Below are positions 42,726 through 51,906 of a stretch of 51,906 bases of DNA, piece after piece; the first letter of the stretch is position 1, and every line of letters starts with the position of its first letter. The notes beneath the pieces were generated by a model. The model saw only the letters and a program-made list of their open reading frames with translations. It was not told the origin of the DNA and did not search any database. The translations under genes were made by a program, and so were the position numbers. The stretch lies in contig JADLBQ010000034.1 in assembly GCA_020847635.1 (NCBI GenBank), positions 1 through 51,906 on the forward strand. The letters run 5' to 3'. This stretch comes from Bacteroidia bacterium. Its GTDB lineage: Bacteria > Bacteroidota > Bacteroidia > AKYH767-A > OLB10.

Positions 42726-43856
42726 CTAGTTGTTGTTCAATAAAGCCATTCTCTTCATTACCGGGATTTTAAATCCAATCAGGTGCTGAATATTTTTAAG
42801 TTCATTGCGTTGTTCCAGATCACAAAAAGAAATAGCCATTCCCTTTCTTCCGGCTCTTCCGGTACGTCCAATTCGATGAACATAGGTTTGCGGAACATGA
42901 GGCAATTCGTAATTGACTACATAAGGCAATTCATCAATATCAATTCCCCTGGCAGCAATATCTGTTGCAACCAACACCCTGATTCTTGATTTCTTAAAAT
43001 CATTTAATGCTTTTTGTCTGGTATTTTGAGTTTTATTCCCGTGAATTGCTGCTGCATAGATTCCTGTTTTAGTTAACTGCCTTACGAGTTTGTCCGCTCC
43101 GAATTTAGTTCGTGTAAAAACCAATGAACTGTTGATGGTTCTACTTTTTATTAACGAAATCAGCAATTCAGCTTTTTCCTTTTTCTCAACAAAGTAAACG
43201 AATTGGCTAATTGTTTCTGCCGTTGGCAACTCGGGAGTAATTGTAATTTCTACCGGCTGATGCAGAATTGATTTTGCGAGTTTTCTGATTGTTACAGGCA
43301 TGGTTGCCGTAAAAAATAAAGTTTGTCTTTTTGCAGGAACTTTATAGAGAACTTTTCTTATGTCATGAATGAATCCGATATCGAGCATGTGGTCTGCTTC
43401 ATCTAGAACCAGAGTTTCTACTCCGGATAAATCAATAAAGCCCTGATTCATTAAATCCAAAAGCCGACCTGGTGTGGCAATCAATACATCAACCCCCTTC
43501 TTCAGTTCTGCAACTTGTCTTACCTGAGAAACACCTCCATAAACAGACAGGCATTTCGTTTGCAGAAACTTCGAAAAGATAACCAGATTCTCTTCAATCT
43601 GTAATGCAAGTTCTCTTGTCGGAGCAAGTATCAAAGCTTTGATTTTTCTCTGATTTTTTATTGCCTCCAGCCTTTGTAATAGTGGAATTGCAAACGCAGC
43701 CGTTTTACCGGTACCTGTCTGAGCACATCCTAAAATATCCTTACCTGCCAGGATCTTGGGAATTGCTTTGCTTTGTATTTCCGTTGTTTCAGCATAACCG
43801 GCTTCTTTTAATGCAGATGTAATTGGCCGGATTATGTTTAAATGGTCAAAATTCAT
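42726..43856 (-). CDS. DEAD-box RNA helicase (RhlE-like)
   Basis: The 376-residue helicase has the full motif set: Q motif (TTEIQSKAIP), motif I (AQTGTGKT), Ia (PTRELAL), Ib (TPGRL), II (DEAD), III (TAT), V (ATDIAARGID) and VI (HRIGRTGRAGR). It is close to the minimal two-RecA core, with almost no C-terminal extension, like short RhlE proteins. It would unwind structured RNA in ribosome assembly or cold adaptation. The neighbouring RRM gene in the same direction supports the latter. The two are 268 bp apart, so not clearly one transcript. Confidence 0.9.
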   Translation of the reverse strand: MNFDHLNIIRPITSALKEAGYAETTEIQSKAIPKILAGKDILGCAQTGTGKTAAFAIPLLQRLEAIKNQRKIKALILAPTRELALQIEENLVIFSKFLQTKCLSVYGGVSQVRQVAELKKGVDVLIATPGRLLDLMNQGFIDLSGVETLVLDEADHMLDIGFIHDIRKVLYKVPAKRQTLFFTATMPVTIRKLAKSILHQPVEITITPELPTAETISQFVYFVEKKEKAELLISLIKSRTINSSLVFTRTKFGADKLVRQLTKTGIYAAAIHGNKTQNTRQKALNDFKKSRIRVLVATDIAARGIDIDELPYVVNYELPHVPQTYVHRIGRTGRAGRKGMAISFCDLEQRNELKNIQHLIGFKIPVMKRMALLNNN

Positions 43857-44124
43857 TTTTAGTATTGAGGGATCTGCAGGTTTTTCTGAGCTATTTAAAA
43901 CAAAATAATCCCATGTAACTTGTGTATTTAAAGTTACCGGAGCCTAGATTCTTTCTTTTAGTTAATTCTTTATTCTTTCAGGATCACTGTCTGAGGCAGG
44001 TAGAGGGAATTACTACGGAATTATACCAGATCTAAGCAACCTGGCCTTTATCCCGTCATCAGACAGAACAATAAGTTAGTCCGATAAAAACCGGAGTTTC
44101 GGGTTGTTTATACCTGGGCTGGTC

Positions 44125-44400
44125 TTAATAACGTTTTCTTTTAAAATCTCCTGATCTTTCTTTTGGTCTTGCTTCATTTACAACTATATTTCTATCACCC
44201 AGACTATAGTTATTCAATCCTTCAATTGCCTTTTCGGCTTCTTCCTTATCAGGCATTTCAACAAAGGCAAATCCTTTGGAGCGCCCGGAAAACTTATCAG
44301 TTATAATTTGAACTGATTGTACGTTTCCATAGCCAGAAAACAGATCTCCAAGTTCCTGTTCTGTTGTTTTGAAGTTTAAATTGCCAACAAAAATGTTCAT
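44125..44400 (-). CDS. Small RRM-type RNA-binding protein
   Basis: The 91-residue protein is a single RNA recognition motif with RNP2 IFVGNL (3-8) and RNP1 SKGFAFVEM (41-49), followed by a basic tail (KERSGDFKRKRY). Such single-RRM proteins occur in Bacteroidota and cyanobacteria and are commonly cold-induced RNA chaperones. It is preceded by a long leader of about 125 nt that contains a perfect 14-bp palindrome. A leader of this kind is usual for cold-shock mRNAs, but regulation is inferred. Confidence 0.9.
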   Translation of the reverse strand: MNIFVGNLNFKTTEQELGDLFSGYGNVQSVQIITDKFSGRSKGFAFVEMPDKEEAEKAIEGLNNYSLGDRNIVVNEARPKERSGDFKRKRY

Positions 44401-44470
44401 ACAAAATAATTTTAATGTTAAATAGTTTTAATGTTTATGTGGCAACTGAAAGCTTGAACTGAACTAGAAA

Positions 44471-44484
44471 AAAAGTATACTTTT
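44471..44484 (-). promoter_or_regulatory. Perfect 14-bp palindrome in the RRM gene leader
   Basis: AAAAGTATACTTTT reads the same on both strands, about 70 nt upstream of the RRM start and downstream of its -7 box. It could be an operator or a leader structure. Confidence 0.4.
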
Positions 44485-44533
44485 AATCTGAATCAACTAA
44501 TGCGAAGGCAGGTGCCTGTAAAAAATGAATGTG

Positions 44534-44541
44534 CAAAGGTA
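44534..44541 (-). promoter_or_regulatory. -7 box (TACCTTTG) of the RRM gene
   Basis: It is an exact TAnnTTTG match 133 nt upstream of the ATG, implying a long 5' leader. Confidence 0.5.
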
Positions 44542-44633
44542 GTTTATTTTCACACACACGATAAAATTATCTTACTCCTTCAAAGTTCCCAAATTTAATT
44601 GCCCTTAATGTTTCGAAGATACCGCGTAATGAC

Positions 44634-45518
44634 TTATCCCTCCAATGCTTCAGCTCCACCAACAATTTCGAGAATTTCATTGGTAATGGCAGCCTGGCGA
44701 GCCTTGTTATACTGCAGCCTGAGGTCATGTAAAAGGTCACCGGCATTGTCGGTAGCCTTACTCATAGCTGTCATCCGGGCCCCATGTTCACTGGCGTTAC
44801 TGTCTAGCAGGGCTTTGAATAATTGTGTTTTCAGTGATCGCGGAATAAGTTCCTGGACAATTGCTGCTTTATCGGGTTCAAAAATATAATCGTTTGCTGC
44901 AGTCGGCATTTTATCTTGTGTTACTGGTGGTGTTATCGGCAAATACGATTCATTAACCACATATTGTACAGCTGCATTTTTAAACTGGTTATACACTAAT
45001 ATAACCCGGTCATAGATACCTGCTGAAAATTCTTCCATTATTCGGCTGGCAATCTCAGCTGCATTTTCAAATGTCAGGTTATTAAACACATCGTTATACT
45101 GACGGGTAAACAGAGCCGGTTTCTTGCTGAAAAAGTCAGTTGCTTTTTTACCAATACACAGGACTTTAACATTTCCAGCCTTAAATTGTGAAGCAAATTC
45201 TTCTTCCAGGGTATGATTGATAAACCGGATAATGTTTGAATTGAAAGCTCCGGCAAGCCCACGATTAGAAGTAATAGCAACAATCAGAATTCGATTGGCC
45301 GGACGAACAACAGCAAAACCACCACTCTCTGAGGCATCAACACTGGATGACAGATTTTCTAGAAGTTCACGGAGTTTGGAAGCATACGGCCGCATCTGGA
45401 TAATGGCATCCTGAGCTCTGCGTAATTTGGCTGCAGACACCATTTTCATTGCTTTGGTAATCTGCTGTGTTGAATTGACTGATGCGATTCGTAACCGAAC
45501 TTCTTTAAGACTTGCCAT
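44634..45518 (-). CDS. atpG: ATP synthase gamma subunit
   Basis: The 294-residue central-stalk subunit has the conserved N-terminal helix (MASLKEVRLRIASVNSTQQITKAMKMVSAAKLRRAQ in pieces), ITSNRGLAGAFN, and the C-terminal helix (SEHGARMTAMSKATDNAGDLL, then YNKARQAAITNEILEIVGGAEAL). It rotates inside alpha3beta3 to couple proton flow to catalysis. It is last in this operon; atpD and atpC do not follow, as usual in Bacteroidota, where they form a separate locus. Confidence 0.95.
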   Translation of the reverse strand: MASLKEVRLRIASVNSTQQITKAMKMVSAAKLRRAQDAIIQMRPYASKLRELLENLSSSVDASESGGFAVVRPANRILIVAITSNRGLAGAFNSNIIRFINHTLEEEFASQFKAGNVKVLCIGKKATDFFSKKPALFTRQYNDVFNNLTFENAAEIASRIMEEFSAGIYDRVILVYNQFKNAAVQYVVNESYLPITPPVTQDKMPTAANDYIFEPDKAAIVQELIPRSLKTQLFKALLDSNASEHGARMTAMSKATDNAGDLLHDLRLQYNKARQAAITNEILEIVGGAEALEG

Positions 45519-45555
45519 TCTCTGTTCCTCCGGTGTTTATGCTGTTCTTGGTTCT

Positions 45556-47136
45556 TTATTTTTTGTATTTAGCCGAAAGTTCTTTTGCAATCTTTTCAAT
45601 AATTGCAAGCACTTCATCTTTTAATTCACCTTTTTTCAACGATTCGAGTGCATCTTTATGCTGAGCATCCAACAGGTGGAGAAAATCATGTTCGAAATCT
45701 TTAATCTTGTTAACCGGGACATCCATCAGCAGACCTTTGGTTCCGCAATAGATAATAGCAACCTGCTGTTCTACCCGGTATGGAGTAAACTGTGGCTGTT
45801 TGAGAATTTCCACATTACGTGCTCCTTTTTCAAGAGTTGCTTTGGTGGCAGCATCAAGATCAGACCCGAATTTTGAGAATGCTTCCAGTTCGCGGTACTG
45901 CGCCTGGTCCAGTTTGAGAGTTCCTGCAATTTTTTTCATTGACTTAATCTGAGCATTTCCTCCGACACGCGATACTGAAATTCCGACATTAATTGCAGGC
46001 CGTACACCGGCATTAAACAAGTTTGCTTCAAGGAATATCTGGCCGTCTGTAATGGAAATTACATTGGTTGGTATATAAGCCGAAACGTCTCCAGCCTGAG
46101 TTTCAATTATTGGTAATGCAGTAAGTGAGCCGCCCCCCTTAACTTTCCCTTTCAGCGACAGAGGTAGGTCATTCATGTTCTTTGCAATTTCATCAGAGTT
46201 GATGATTTTGGCAGCACGTTCGAGCAACCGGGAGTGCAGATAGAAGACATCTCCGGGATATGCTTCACGACCGGGAGGTCTGCGAAGTAGTAATGATACT
46301 TCACGGTAAGCAACTGCCTGTTTTGACAAATCATCATAAACAATCAGTGCCGGACGACCTGTATCACGGAAATATTCACCGATAGCAGCCCCGGCCATGG
46401 GTGCAAAAAACTGCATCGGAGCAGGGTCTGAGGCAGAAGCAGAAACTACAATGGAGTAAGGCATTGCCCCCCGCTCTTCAAGTGTTTTAACAATATTGGC
46501 AACGGTTGATCCTTTCTGACTGATAGCAACATAGATACAGAAAACAGGCTTACCGGCCTCATAAAACTCACGCTGATTGATGATTGTATCAATAGCTACC
46601 GCGGTCTTACCGGTTTGACGGTCTCCGATATTTAATTCACGCTGTCCTCTTCCAATTGGGATCATGGCATCAATGGCCTTAATTCCGGTTTGTAATGGTT
46701 CGTTAACCGGCTGGCGGAAAATAACTCCCGGAGCTTTACGTTCAATCGGCATTTCGAGCAGTTCACCATGAATTGGGCCTTTACCGTCAATCGGATTTCC
46801 AAGACCATCAACTACACGTCCCAGCATGCCTTCTCCAACCTTAATGGAGGCAATCTTACCAGTACGTTTTGCAATATCTCCTTCACGAATATCACTTGAT
46901 GGGCCAAGCAATACTGCTCCAACATTGTCTTCCTCCAGATTAAGGACGACACCCTGTAAGCCGTTTTCAAATTCAATCAGTTCACCTGACTGAACCTTGG
47001 TCAGCCCGTACAAACGGGCAATCCCGTCACCTACTTGTAACACCGTTCCGGTTTCTTCAAGTTCATTTGCAGTACGAAAGCCGGCTAATTGCTGGCGCAA
47101 TATGGCTGATACTTCATCTGGTCTTACTTCTGCCAT
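45556..47136 (-). CDS. atpA: ATP synthase alpha subunit
   Basis: The 526-residue F1 subunit has the Walker [10 protein letters not shown], the catalytic-interface arginine region ([17 protein letters not shown]) and the N-terminal beta barrel ([16 protein letters not shown]). Length and motif set are standard. It is 38 bp from atpG and 39 bp from atpH, within one operon. Confidence 0.97.
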
Positions 47137-47175
47137 GGTATTATATTTTTAATTGTTTTATTTAAATAATGAAAT

Positions 47176-47733
47176 TTAATAATCCTTAAGGTACAGATTC
47201 TGGCTAAAATCCATTTTCAATAATCTCAGTTTACGGCTTACACTGGCATCAACCTGCTTATCACCCCATCTGAGTATAAATCCACCAATTAACGAACGGT
47301 CAATCTGCTCGCTCAATTCCACTTTTCTATTGGTTTCTGATTTCAGGTAGGTCAGAAGCTCTGCTTTTACTGAATCATCAAGCTTAACCGGAGTCAGAAT
47401 CAGTGCTGTTGTAATACCCTTCATTTCACGATACATATGAATAAAACTTCTTGAAATCCCTTCAATATGAGATTCACGCTTTTTTGAAGTAATAATCTTC
47501 AGAAATGAAAGTGTCAGTGCTGACACGTTAGCCCCGAATAATTTCTCAATAACGGTTATTTTTTTATCGGTATGGATGATTGGATTCTTAAAAAACAAAG
47601 CCAGGTCACGGCTGGATTTAATGGTAGCATAAATCAGGCTTAAATCGTTGTAAGCGAGCTCGGTCTCATTTCGTTCTGCTGCCAGATCCAGCAATGATTT
47701 TGCATACCTGCGTGATAACTTTGAGTCATTCAT
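47176..47733 (-). CDS. atpH: ATP synthase delta subunit
   Basis: The 185-residue peripheral-stalk subunit begins SRRYAKSLLDLA and ends with the C-terminal VDRSLIGGF-like segment (QIDRSLIGGFILRWGDKQVDASVSRKL in pieces). It joins F1 to the b stator. The gene lies 11 bp after atpF. Confidence 0.93.
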   Translation of the reverse strand: MNDSKLSRRYAKSLLDLAAERNETELAYNDLSLIYATIKSSRDLALFFKNPIIHTDKKITVIEKLFGANVSALTLSFLKIITSKKRESHIEGISRSFIHMYREMKGITTALILTPVKLDDSVKAELLTYLKSETNRKVELSEQIDRSLIGGFILRWGDKQVDASVSRKLRLLKMDFSQNLYLKDY

Positions 47734-47744
47734 TTTTTCAACTT

Positions 47745-48239
47745 CTAATTCAGTTTAACATCTTTCAGCATTTCCACAACCAGCGCTTTCTGCTTCTCAT
47801 CAGTAGCAAGTTGCTGGCGGATTATCTTTTCTGCAATTTCAATTGAAAGATTAGCCACTTGATTCTTTAATTCTGTAATGGCAGCCATCTTCTCGTTGTG
47901 AATGGATTCTCTTGCAATTTTAATTAGCCGGTCAGCTTCTTCTGTTGCTTTTCCCCGGGCTTCATTGATGATCTGATCTTTTGTATCACGGGCTTGTTTG
48001 AGAATCTGATCGCGTTCATTCCGAGCCTCAACAAGCAGCTTTTCGTTGTCAGCTTTCAGATTTGCCATCTCACTCCGAGCTTTTTCAGCTGACTTTAGTG
48101 AATTCTCAATTGATTGTTCACGGTCTTTAAGCGCCTTCATGATTGGCTTCCATGCAAACTTAGTTAGCAGGAATACCAGAATTCCGAATGAAATTGTCAT
48201 CCAGAAAATCAGCCCAAATTCAGGTTTTACTAACTCCAT
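47745..48239 (-). CDS. atpF: ATP synthase b subunit
   Basis: The 164-residue stator subunit has one N-terminal membrane helix (about 8-28, FGLIFWMTISFGILVFLLTKFAW) and a long charged helix for dimerisation. It follows atpE after an 89-bp gap that holds a strong hairpin with a T-run, which should lower atpF and downstream expression relative to atpE. Confidence 0.94.
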   Translation of the reverse strand: MELVKPEFGLIFWMTISFGILVFLLTKFAWKPIMKALKDREQSIENSLKSAEKARSEMANLKADNEKLLVEARNERDQILKQARDTKDQIINEARGKATEEADRLIKIARESIHNEKMAAITELKNQVANLSIEIAEKIIRQQLATDEKQKALVVEMLKDVKLN

Positions 48240-48266
48240 GTTAATTCATTTTTTAATTCTATTTTT

Positions 48267-48305
48267 AAAAAATCTGCCTTGCAGCCAGGTGCTGCAAAGC
48301 AGATT
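48267..48305 (-). terminator. Intra-operon intrinsic terminator/attenuator after atpE
   Basis: The arms 48271-48285 and 48291-48305 pair over 15 positions with a single A-C mismatch, closing a 5-nt loop. In the direction of transcription the stem is directly followed by six T (48267-48272, two of them in the stem). It starts 23 nt after the atpE stop and lies within the atpBEFHAG operon. Partial termination or 3'-end protection would give more atpB-atpE mRNA than atpFHAG mRNA. Confidence 0.75.
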
Positions 48306-48328
48306 GTTGTTTGAACCGTTACCACTGA

Positions 48329-48592
<264 letters not shown>

Positions 48593-48605
48593 TTAAAATT
48601 TCTGA

Positions 48606-49712
48606 TTAAATACTCTCATGTGACACTCCATGATCATGTGCTTCTTCAACTGCCGAACCTATATAGATGGCTGAGAGAAATACAAAAATATAGGCCTGAA
48701 GTGCTGCAACCAGAACTTCAAGACTGGTCATGAACACCGTGAAAATTAATGACACAACTCCGACTCCGAATCCGGCCCCCGGATTAGCTCCGTTCTCTGA
48801 GAAAATAAAAATAAGACTGAAGAACGAGAGTATGATGATGTGACCGGCAACAATATTTGCAAATAACCGGATCATCAGAACAAAAGGTCGCAGGATAACT
48901 CCCATCAATTCAATCGGAGTCAGAATAATAAGAACCCATTTAGGAACTCCCGGCATAGCGAAAATATGCTGCCAGTAGTGTTTATTACCACTTAGTGAAG
49001 TTATAATCAGTGTAAGTACTGCCATTGTCATTGCAATTGCAATGTTTCCTGTCAGATTGGCTCCTCCCGGAAAGAATGGAATGATCCCCAGCATATTGTT
49101 AAACCAGATGAAAAAAAACAGAGTCATCAGGTAAGGAACATATTTTTCATACTTAGGACCAATTCCGGTCTTAATTACATCATCTCTGACGAAAATAATG
49201 ATAGGCTCCAGAAAAGACTGCAATCCCCGCGGAGGACGATTCGGATTCCGCTTATACGTATTGGCTACTGAAATAAAAATCAGGCATAGTAAAATAATGC
49301 TGATGATTAATGAAGTAACATTCTTGGTAATGGACAAATCCCATAGATGGGGTGTTAGTTTTTCATGAAGGGTAGCCTGTTCAGCAGGAACAGATTCCAT
49401 TTCTTTCACTGCTACTACTTTTTTATCCTTATTCAGCATATACCCTTTCCATGTCATTTCGCCATGATGAAAGGCCGAACTCAGAAAAACATCAAGTCCG
49501 CGAGCTTTCGAGTAAATAATGACAGGAAGAGGGATTGAACTGTGGCCCCACAAATGCCAATCGTGGGCATCAACCACATGGGCCATTATATTTTTACCGG
49601 CTTCAAACTCCATCATTTCACCTTTATCGACAGCTGCCTGTACCTTCACCGGATTTAATAAAAGAACAATCAGCCCAAAGAAGACTAACAATCGGTTGGT
49701 TATCAAAGCCAT
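48606..49712 (-). CDS. atpB: ATP synthase a subunit
   Basis: The 368-residue membrane subunit is longer than the E. coli protein (271). It has a signal-like N-terminus (ending VQAA near 27) and a periplasmic N-terminal domain of about 100 residues (DAHDWHLWGHSSIPLPVIIY), a known Bacteroidota form. The membrane part holds the essential arginine in MIRLFANIVAGH and the C-terminal helices (SLEVLVAALQAYIFVFLSAIYI). It is first in the operon with its own promoter; no atpI precedes it in this window. Confidence 0.95.
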   Translation of the reverse strand: MALITNRLLVFFGLIVLLLNPVKVQAAVDKGEMMEFEAGKNIMAHVVDAHDWHLWGHSSIPLPVIIYSKARGLDVFLSSAFHHGEMTWKGYMLNKDKKVVAVKEMESVPAEQATLHEKLTPHLWDLSITKNVTSLIISIILLCLIFISVANTYKRNPNRPPRGLQSFLEPIIIFVRDDVIKTGIGPKYEKYVPYLMTLFFFIWFNNMLGIIPFFPGGANLTGNIAIAMTMAVLTLIITSLSGNKHYWQHIFAMPGVPKWVLIILTPIELMGVILRPFVLMIRLFANIVAGHIIILSFFSLIFIFSENGANPGAGFGVGVVSLIFTVFMTSLEVLVAALQAYIFVFLSAIYIGSAVEEAHDHGVSHESI

Positions 49713-49738
49713 GAAAATCAGATTTTTAAAACGGAGCG

Positions 49739-49768
49739 CAAATATATAAACTGAACGTTAAAATCCAA
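49739..49768 (-). promoter_or_regulatory. Promoter of the atp operon
   Basis: On the minus strand TTG (49766-49768) precedes TATATTTG (49739-49746) by 19 nt, a complete Bacteroidota-type promoter. The atpB ATG is 26 nt downstream. Confidence 0.7.
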
Positions 49769-49862
49769 GTCTTTTAACATGTTCTGAAATTCCCCTTATC
49801 GAAGGCCAGCAAAAGCAGACAGAGCTGTCTGATTAAGCCCGGTCAACCTTCGATATATTGCT

Positions 49863-49882
49863 ATATGAATATATATTCATAT
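49863..49882. promoter_or_regulatory. Perfect 20-bp palindromic operator of the arsR operon
   Basis: ATATGAATATATATTCATAT equals its own reverse complement. It overlaps the -7 box at 49880-49887, so a bound dimer would block transcription. Length and AT-rich symmetry fit ArsR-family operators; autorepression by the adjacent regulator is inferred. Confidence 0.75.
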
Positions 49883-49887
49883 TTTTG
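49880..49887 (+). promoter_or_regulatory. -7 box (TATTTTTG) of the arsR-TSUP-trx operon
   Basis: It is an exact TAnnTTTG match overlapping the palindrome and ending 12 nt before the GTG at 49900. An ATG at 49858 lies upstream of this promoter and is therefore not the likely start. Confidence 0.6.
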
Positions 49888-49899
49888 CATTTTAAACCT

Positions 49900-50202
49900 G
49901 TGACAAGTCATAAAATTCCTGCAAATCGGCTTCACAAAATTGCAGAAGTACTCAAGTCGGTAGGTCATCCGGTAAGGCTTGAAATTATTGCCTTGCTGGA
50001 GGCCCGTAACCGGTTGAATGTCTTTGAAATTCAACAACACATTTCGGTGCCTGTTGAACAGAGTATGCTCTCACATCATCTGACTAAGATGAAGGACAAA
50101 GGAATATTAAGCTCTATAAAGGAAGGCCAGTATGTATTTTACAGTTTAAAAGATCCGAATATTTCTAACCTGCTCGATTGTATGTCGAAATGTAAATTAT
50201 GA
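49900..50202 (+). CDS. ArsR-family transcriptional repressor, likely sulfur-responsive
   Basis: From the GTG at 49900 the protein has 100 residues with the winged helix-turn-helix of the ArsR/SmtB family (about 12-85): the LKSVGHPVRLEIIALLE start, recognition helix QSMLSHHLTKMKDKGIL and wing SSIKEGQYVFYSL. The metal-binding ELCVCD motif is absent. The only cysteines are C94 and C98 in the tail. Together with the TSUP exporter and thioredoxin downstream, a thiol or persulfide signal is more likely than arsenic (inference; the known persulfide sensors BigR/SqrR use differently placed cysteines). The stop overlaps the next ATG by 4 bp. Confidence 0.85.
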   Translation: MTSHKIPANRLHKIAEVLKSVGHPVRLEIIALLEARNRLNVFEIQQHISVPVEQSMLSHHLTKMKDKGILSSIKEGQYVFYSLKDPNISNLLDCMSKCKL

Positions 50203-51005
50203 GTGAACTGCTGGCTTACATCACTTCCGGAATTATTGGAATTTCACTGGGGCTTATAGGTGCAGGAGGAAGCATATTAACTGTTCCTGTACTCGTATAT
50301 ATTGCAGGAATTGACCCGGTTCTTGCTACTGCCTATTCCTTGTTTGTAGTTGGTTCAACTGCGTTGGTTGGCGGCATTCGGTATGCCATTCAAAATCTGG
50401 TAAACTGGAAGATGGTTGCAGTTTTTGGGATTCCATCTATTGCTGCTGTTTATGCAACCCGCGCCTGGATAATGCCTGTAATAACAGATCCGGTTTTTCA
50501 GGTAGCTTCATATCCGGTTTCAAAAGGTTTGTTTTTGCTCTTACTATTTTCACTTCTTATGATTGTTGCTTCCGTTTCGATGATAAAACGGAAATCTGAT
50601 CTAGCACCGGTAAAGCCTGACCATGCAACCTTAAATCTTCCGTTAATCGGATTAGAGGGTATCGGTACCGGTATTCTGACGGGTCTGGTCGGAGCAGGTG
50701 GCGGTTTTCTGATTATCCCTGCCCTTGTGCTCCTGGCAAAGGTTCCGATGAAGCGGGCTATTGGAACCTCACTCATGATTATTGCATTGAAATCCCTGAT
50801 TGGCTTTACCGGTGACCTGCAGTCAGGAATGGCAATGAACTGGCCTTTCTTACTGATTTTCACATTGTTCTCAGTTGGTGGAATTTTTGCAGGTATCGGA
50901 ATTGGGAAAAGATTTGACGGCCACAAGCTGCAACAAGCATTCGGATGGTTCATTTTGATCATGGGGATTTACATCATCCTGAAAGAAACATTGTTAAAAG
51001 CATAA
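50199..51005 (+). CDS. TSUP (TauE/SafE) family sulfur-anion exporter
   Basis: The 268-residue inner-membrane protein shows the tandem TSUP signature, GLIGAGGSILTVPVLVY (about 18-34) and GLVGAGGGFLIIPALVLL (about 163-180), and about eight helices. TSUP proteins move sulfite, thiosulfate, sulfoacetate or similar anions. Translational coupling to an ArsR regulator and a thioredoxin downstream suggests handling of reactive sulfur. Confidence 0.88.
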   Translation: MSELLAYITSGIIGISLGLIGAGGSILTVPVLVYIAGIDPVLATAYSLFVVGSTALVGGIRYAIQNLVNWKMVAVFGIPSIAAVYATRAWIMPVITDPVFQVASYPVSKGLFLLLLFSLLMIVASVSMIKRKSDLAPVKPDHATLNLPLIGLEGIGTGILTGLVGAGGGFLIIPALVLLAKVPMKRAIGTSLMIIALKSLIGFTGDLQSGMAMNWPFLLIFTLFSVGGIFAGIGIGKRFDGHKLQQAFGWFILIMGIYIILKETLLKA

Positions 51006-51018
51006 AAACAAAAAAATT

Positions 51019-51336
51019 ATGAATACCATGGAAAAACAACAAACGTTTTCAGAAATTATCAAATCAGAAAAACTGGTCCTGGTTGACTTTTTTGCTGAAT
51101 GGTGTGGCCCTTGCAAAATGATGAAACCAATTCTGGAAGAAGTCAAAGCCAAAGCTGCTGAGAAGATACGAATTTTAAAAGTTGATGTTGACCGGAATCA
51201 ACTGGTTTCTTCTTCGTTTGGAATTCAGGGAGTCCCTACACTTATTTTATTTAAAAATGGGAATCCGGTTTGGCGGCAAAGCGGAGTTGTTGGTGCCGAA
51301 ATGCTTCTTCAGCTGATCCGTCAGCATCAGGAGTAA
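51019..51336 (+). CDS. Thioredoxin
   Basis: The 105-residue protein has the thioredoxin fold with active site W28-C-G-P-C32 and the cis-proline motif GVPTLILF. There is no signal peptide, so it is cytoplasmic. It is 13 bp after the TSUP gene, in the same operon. A role in reducing persulfides or regenerating the regulator is plausible from context; it could equally be a general thioredoxin. Confidence 0.92.
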   Translation: MNTMEKQQTFSEIIKSEKLVLVDFFAEWCGPCKMMKPILEEVKAKAAEKIRILKVDVDRNQLVSSSFGIQGVPTLILFKNGNPVWRQSGVVGAEMLLQLIRQHQE

Positions 51337-51440
51337 AATGACATTTTGCATCGAAATTGGATTACCATTGACAGCTTTGCTTTAACCGACCTGTTACAGG
51401 TATCCATTATCTGCTTCTTAAAAACACCTTTCTTTGCTGA

Positions 51441-51906
51441 ATGCTTACTATTAACCATAGCGTTACTGAACGATTTCTTCGTTATGTAAAAATTGATACT
51501 CAGTCAGATCCTGAATCAAAAACATTTCCGTCAACCGAAAAACAAAAGGATTTATCTCGAATATTAGTGGAAGAACTTAAGCAAATGGGTATTACAGATG
51601 CTCATCTTGATTCCTTCGGTTACGTGTATGCAACCATCCATTCAAATACCGGTAAAAACGTTCCGATTATCTGTTTTTGTTCTCATGTTGACACTTCTCC
51701 TGATTGTTCAGGAAAAAACGTAACTCCGGTAATTCATAAAAATTATCAGGGTGGAAATATTACGCTTCCTGCAGATACAACTCAGGTGTTAACACCTGAA
51801 GGTCATCCGGAGCTTCTCAACCAGATCGGCAATGATATTATCACAGCTGACGGCACCACTTTACTTGGAGCTGATAATAAAGCCGGAGTTGCCGAAATTA
51901 TGGATG
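51441..51906 (+). CDS. pepT: Peptidase T (tripeptide aminopeptidase), 3' part beyond the window
   Basis: The visible 155 residues begin MLTINHSVTERFLRYVKIDTQSDP, as in PepT. They include the metal-binding segment CFCSHVDTSPD and the LGADNKAGVAEIMD segment with the bridging Asp. This M20B zinc enzyme removes N-terminal residues from tripeptides in the cytoplasm. The frame runs off the right end. TTTCTTTG, one base off the -7 consensus, lies 4 nt before the ATG. Confidence 0.9.
   Translation, partial: MLTINHSVTERFLRYVKIDTQSDPESKTFPSTEKQKDLSRILVEELKQMGITDAHLDSFGYVYATIHSNTGKNVPIICFCSHVDTSPDCSGKNVTPVIHKNYQGGNITLPADTTQVLTPEGHPELLNQIGNDIITADGTTLLGADNKAGVAEIMD

Follow-up and report, generated by a model that had tools for sequence, protein, structure and literature searches.

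Each ATP synthase needs about ten c subunits from a shared operon, which is a classic stoichiometry problem. The atp operon of E. coli poses the same problem as the locus described here, namely an excess of c subunit from a polycistronic operon; its solution is a translational enhancer in front of atpE, and its post-transcriptional control is said to have been reviewed by McCarthy in 1990. Solutions at the 3′ end of a gene within an operon have been described in other bacteria. In C. cellulolyticum the transcript of the F-ATPase c subunit exceeds those of the adjacent genes three- to five-fold, and the corresponding gene, Ccel_0267 in the operon Ccel_0265-0273, carries a 3′ stem-loop (PMC4423207). 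Internal terminators with a long stem and few U set the ratios within ABC-importer operons of the same species, there named Ruminiclostridium cellulolyticum, and the part of the paper devoted to them describes a stem-loop sequence that is not conserved except for its GC richness (PMC9045158).

The operon analysed here encodes an F-type ATP synthase and lies on the minus strand of a 51,906-nucleotide stretch of DNA from a Bacteroidia bacterium; this whole stretch is called the window. The genes follow each other in the order atpB, atpE, atpF, atpH, atpA, atpG, and the relevant features are:

48606..49712, minus strand: atpB, subunit a, heads the operon, ahead of atpE (ORF; Pfam ATP-synt_A, E 1.7e-55)
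48329..48580, minus strand: atpE, subunit c, 83 aa, directly upstream of the hairpin (ORF; Pfam ATP-synt_C, E 1.3e-14)
48240..48328, minus strand: gap between atpE and atpF, 89 nt (sequence)
48291..48305, minus strand: 5′ arm of the stem, AATCTGCTTTGCAGC (fold; covariation over 26 and 56 sequences)
48286..48290, minus strand: pentaloop at the tip, ACCUG, a variant of the conserved GNYUG (loop comparison)
48271..48285, minus strand: 3′ arm of the stem, GCTGCAAGGCAGATT (fold; covariation over 26 and 56 sequences)
48267..48272, minus strand: U-tract of six U (sequence; tail score 2.55, rank 48/109 among relatives)
47745..48239, minus strand: atpF, subunit b, next gene after the hairpin (ORF; Pfam ATP-synt_B, E 1.2e-33)
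44634..47733, minus strand: atpH, atpA and atpG, downstream of the hairpin (ORFs; Pfam OSCP, ATP-synt_ab and ATP-synt)
47176-47733, minus strand: atpH (ORF; Pfam OSCP)
45556-47136, minus strand: atpA (ORF; Pfam ATP-synt_ab)
44634-45518, minus strand: atpG (ORF; Pfam ATP-synt)

With its 89 nt, the atpE-atpF gap is by far the longest within the operon; the other four measure 25, 11, 39 and 37 nt and each folds to 0 kcal/mol. The hairpin at 48305-48271 (minus strand) reads AATCTGCTTTGCAGC-ACCTG-GCTGCAAGGCAGATT and is followed without a break by T6 at 48272-48267. An earlier note on this DNA had described a 15-pair stem with one mismatch and a T-run between atpE and atpF, and folding bears this out: all 15 pairs form in the transcript, the A/C mismatch of the plus strand being a G·U pair on the transcribed strand, and the first two U of the U6 pair with AA at the 5′ base of the stem. 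The minimum free energy of the 91-nt region is -26.1 kcal/mol on the minus strand (z -5.0; 0/200 shuffles as stable) and -21.6 kcal/mol on the plus strand (z -2.9; 1/200). A stable stem that runs straight into a U-tract, here 15 pairs and then U6, is the anatomy of an intrinsic terminator. A simple terminator scan of the window did not list the hairpin, apparently because the stem absorbs two T and leaves TTTT for a rule that needs five. Since no strong hairpin with a U-tract was seen right after atpG (44401-44633, minus strand), the operon shows a single strong terminator-like structure, the one behind atpE. A repeat (REP-like) or mobile element is ruled out by a 271-bp query, which has a single match in the genome. 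Rfam covariance models gave no match at gathering score over 43000-51906. In 15 relative loci searched at E<=1 there were four matches, all far below gathering and all to animal RNA families (two to mir-4520 on both strands of one site in locus L070, one to mir-592 and one to the histone 3′ stem-loop), and these are taken as chance.

The hairpin shares its position with the stoichiometry stem-loops, as it lies inside an operon right after a gene needed in excess. Like the stem-loops of selective RNA processing and stabilisation (SRPS) covered in the relevant passages of PMC4423207 and PMC8219983, it is a 3′ stem-loop after the same gene, that of the c subunit. Two differences stand out: 28/33 SRPS stem-loops of C. 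cellulolyticum have no U run according to those passages (PMC4423207), whereas a short U-tract is common here, and the SRPS passages (PMC4423207, PMC8219983) mention no conserved loop, whereas the pentaloop is conserved here. The terminators of R. cellulolyticum, as far as the relevant part of PMC9045158 goes, resemble it more closely. They too are intra-operon stem-loops right after a gene needed in excess, have a long stem and fewer U than canonical terminators, favour U in the first seven bases of the tail and have a U-tract partly paired with upstream A. Unlike them, the present hairpin belongs to other operons in another phylum and keeps its pentaloop over most sampled Bacteroidia. The L17 downstream element (RF01708; PMC2864571, in the portion describing it) is similar in that a conserved structure lies behind one gene, probably within its 3′ UTR; gene, phylum and structure are all different, and the atp site gives no Rfam match. 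The hairpin is thus a variant of the known intra-operon stoichiometry stem-loops, and the conserved GNYUG pentaloop is a new feature, since the stem-loop sequence of the R. cellulolyticum terminators is not conserved (PMC9045158, same part). A literature search, with most subscription papers, preprints and motif-survey supplements outside its scope, found no description of the element, no structured-RNA motif in the vicinity of ATP synthase in Bacteroidetes and no GGUUG pentaloop. It also found no 3′-end or expression data for Bacteroidota, subscription papers and preprints again being outside its scope.

It is reasonably probable that the element serves atpBE as a conserved leaky internal terminator and 3′-end cap, with a loop recognised by a factor, giving more atpBE than atpFHAG mRNA. 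The long stem with its short U-tract would act as a leaky internal terminator in the transcript, and the stem would also protect atpB-atpE mRNA at its 3′ end from 3′ exonucleases. The predicted surplus of atpBE over atpFHAG mRNA could then supply the many c subunits. The C-GNYUG-G pentaloop might be recognised by a trans-acting factor, which could be an RNA-binding protein, a nuclease or a transcription factor, and such a loop-binding factor would set read-through or stability. As termination and capping need no conserved loop, its conservation suggests a further role, for instance as the recognition site of a factor.

The comparison with relatives was based on AtpE matches in genus, family and order (atpE found in 41/42 order genomes), in the phylum (a relative in 294/296 genomes) and in a collection of named genomes, where the best 80 of at least 558 matches were used. 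After removal of 8 duplicates from the 191 loci read, 183 distinct atpE-atpF gaps were available, comprising 42 order loci, 69 whole-genome loci of class and phylum and 72 named loci, some of the named relatives being the same contigs as order members. The sampling is biased towards AtpE sequences like that of the window, so divergent families are under-represented. Two alignments were made, A1 (26 rows, order) and A3 (56 rows, class-wide), with rows chosen by the pattern C[AG]N[CT]TGG and by pairing. Because rows were picked by this pattern, the invariance of C, U, G and G in them is partly by construction. The claim on the loop therefore rests on an unselected test, in which the strongest hairpin of each gap was taken regardless of its loop, avoiding choice by motif. 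The covariance model R1 was built from 26 order loci, leaving out a 27th qualifying locus (L010) because its hairpin equals that of another (L009), and R2 was built from 56/65 qualifying loci after near-duplicates had been dropped.

The stem is maintained with sequences that are almost wholly different between species: 96.7% of 390 cells are paired in the 26 order sequences and 95.0% of 840 cells in the 56 class-wide ones. Over the latter, the covariation score is 1.059 versus 0.224 for shuffled alignments, with changes on both sides in 14/15 pairs. G·U combinations outnumber A/C on the coding strand by 49 to 8 in A3 (56 rows) and by 24 to 5 in A1 (26 rows), counts favoured by the row choice, which scored G·U as paired; a less selected count gives 101 versus 43. 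This excess indicates that the transcript is the functional strand and rules out a DNA-level palindrome without strand sense. The element is also tied to one particular gene. The distance from the atpE stop codon to the loop is nearly fixed over 112 loci (quartiles 25, 27.5 and 33 nt), whereas that from the loop to atpF varies (quartiles 55, 64.5 and 82 nt, maximum 922), so the attachment is to atpE and not to atpF. Folds of -10 kcal/mol or below occur in 42/42 atpE-atpF gaps of the order, and in 8/41 B-E, 8/42 F-H and 7/36 H-A gaps, these last three having been measured to the first BLAST-matched codon and possibly including coding bases.

Whether the hairpin terminates transcription can be judged from what follows it. 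Over 109 loci the U frequency at positions +1 to +7 after the last G-C pair is 0.66, 0.83, 0.78, 0.61, 0.50, 0.50 and 0.48; from +9 onwards it is about 0.27. The median tail score, in the form of d'Aubenton-Carafa, is 2.68 versus 0.84 at downstream control positions, the window reaching 2.55 (rank 48/109). At least five U in 8 nt are present in 62/112 loci and at least six in 41/112, the latter in only 8/39 within the window's order. The U-tract is short and, although conserved on average across relatives, weak and variable. The earlier note had taken the hairpin for an intrinsic terminator that would raise the share of atpB-atpE transcripts and so set stoichiometry, without remarking on the pentaloop; this reading is supported in part. 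The anatomy agrees with it, U being enriched from +1 to +7, as does the position behind the gene of the most abundant subunit, but strong termination is not the shared property, as the longest T run within the first 12 nt is three or shorter in 53/112 loci. In the many relatives with a poor U-tract termination may be absent in some. A long stem (median 16 pairs) with a U-tract weaker than that of canonical terminators is characteristic of leaky terminators and of SRPS stem-loops, and the pattern fits either a leaky terminator or a cap that doubles as a terminator in some species.

The same data bear on a purely protective role, in which RNA polymerase reads through, an endonuclease cuts the A/U-rich stretch that separates the hairpin from atpF, and the fragment upstream is shielded by the hairpin as by an SRPS element, with the U-tract as a by-product of the basal A-U pairs. 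The very stable, long stems of the relatives (median -22.8 kcal/mol, 16 pairs), the weak U-tracts of many species and the A-rich RNA that precedes atpF (median 49 nt) speak for it, and in the relevant passages of PMC4423207 a U run accompanies only 5/33 such stem-loops of C. cellulolyticum. Processing and stabilisation alone are nevertheless unlikely to account for the element, since U is enriched at +4 to +7, past the pairs usually formed, and drops to the background level near +9, as a terminator predicts.

Whether the hairpin is conserved in Bacteroidota, a question raised by the earlier note, can be answered positively. In the unselected test, the strongest hairpin of the gap carries a C-[G/A]NYUG-G loop in 39/42 order loci, in 21/42 other loci of the same class (Bacteroidia) and in 50/72 named loci. 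The motif loop was found in 0/27 loci from other classes of the phylum and on the strongest hairpin of 0/840 dinucleotide-shuffled gaps. Most relatives have GGUUG or GAUUG where the window has ACCUG. The three order loci that lack the motif loop are L033, L043 and L025. The last of these (G006:C251) is part of a second copy of the atpB-E-F-H-A genes within one genome bin; its hairpin is strong but lacks the motif loop, and the set is possibly a contamination.

A conserved loop on a stem whose sequence is free to change points to a putative loop-recognising factor, and it is also what would be expected of a regulated site at which GNYUG is recognised by an RNA-binding protein, perhaps one of the assembly factors or subunits of the ATP synthase, that controls atpF translation, read-through or decay according to need, stoichiometry not being the main purpose. 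The retention of GNYUG under other closing pairs in four class and three named loci (L048, L058, L066, L144, L154, L179, L184) and the presence of one site per genome in 25/28 matched order genomes fit such a site. Against it, nine class loci of one Chitinophagaceae-like family (f7; L047, L051, L052, L055, L056, L060, L062, L068, L071) have replaced the loop by C-NNAGG-G at the same place, mostly above an internal loop, and have kept the hairpin. Moreover, no candidate protein was found: a gene for an RRM protein beside atpG, considered as a conserved partner, was rejected, as it is present in 0/14 relative stretches, 11 of which have atpG in view. Regulation as the main purpose is rather improbable. 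In gut-type Bacteroidales (L122, L127, L132, L138, L159, L170, L174, L176) the atpE-atpF gaps are short and have no hairpin, which is therefore dispensable there; the group includes Muribaculaceae (L122, L138, L159, L170), Dysgonomonadaceae-like loci (L132, L176) and also Porphyromonadaceae. These hairpin-less loci, the changed loop of f7 and the near-absent U-tracts of some species limit the generality of termination and leave the role at the 3′ end unrefuted.

How far the loop is confined to atpE was assessed with the two covariance models, whose matches in genomes that gave training rows are again by construction. R1 finds one site in the genome of the window (G000) and, at E<=1, matches in 28/42 order genomes, the best match being the atp gap in all 28; only three other places were matched (G038:C61 with 31.6 bits, G012:C10 with 25.9 and G031:C351 with 19.4). 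R2, applied to 30 genomes of the class and 10 of other classes, matched 25/40 at E<=1, with the atp gap as best match in 15 class genomes, which are all the class genomes where it finds this gap. Outside the atp gap lie 19 of its 34 listed places. The strongest (G255:C1 with 39.6 bits, G279:C4 with 35.6, G058:C1 with 32.1 and G058:C9 with 31.9) sit at the ends of other genes and resemble ordinary terminators; C-GATTG-G is the loop in two cases. The GNYUG loop thus occurs at a few unremarkable gene ends (G255:C1, G279:C4) as well; it is strongly associated with atpE and not absolutely confined to it. Terminator-like hairpins in general were surveyed in stretches of four genomes (173 in all; 13, 26, 90 and 44), judged by eye from top loops and near-matches; a loose pattern flagged six, and none could be read as a clear C-GNYUG-G pentaloop. 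That the element is an ordinary intrinsic terminator carrying merely the favourite terminator loop of its lineage, with no specific role, is very improbable despite its terminator anatomy and the C-GATTG-G loops at some other gene ends, as this generic loop is rejected by the survey and the atp gap is the best R2 match wherever R2 finds it in the class.

It can be proposed, more tentatively than the leaky terminator and cap itself, that most Bacteroidia possess one dedicated GNYUG hairpin which, read by a putative loop-binding factor, would set the amount of c subunit relative to the remainder of the enzyme. If true, this would be an RNA-level stoichiometry switch for a single operon that has been kept across a bacterial class, in a phylum with little-known post-transcriptional regulation. 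The class-wide hairpin at the 3′ end of the c-subunit gene makes one RNA solution to the stoichiometry problem testable.

Several minor observations were made along the way. In the window, atpG is followed downstream by a gene for a small RNA-binding protein of the RRM type (Pfam RRM_1; 44125-44400, minus strand) and by a DEAD-box helicase-like ORF (42726-43856, minus strand). Strong hairpins with unrelated loops follow atpE in 21/27 loci from other classes of the phylum (L067, L069, L203, L205, L213, L215 and others), where the gap ends were set by BLAST match and may in some cases lie within coding sequence. One locus (L040, G037:C98) has an atpE-atpF gap of 373 nt, where an array of about nine copies of a repeat of about 21 bp lies between the hairpin and atpF.
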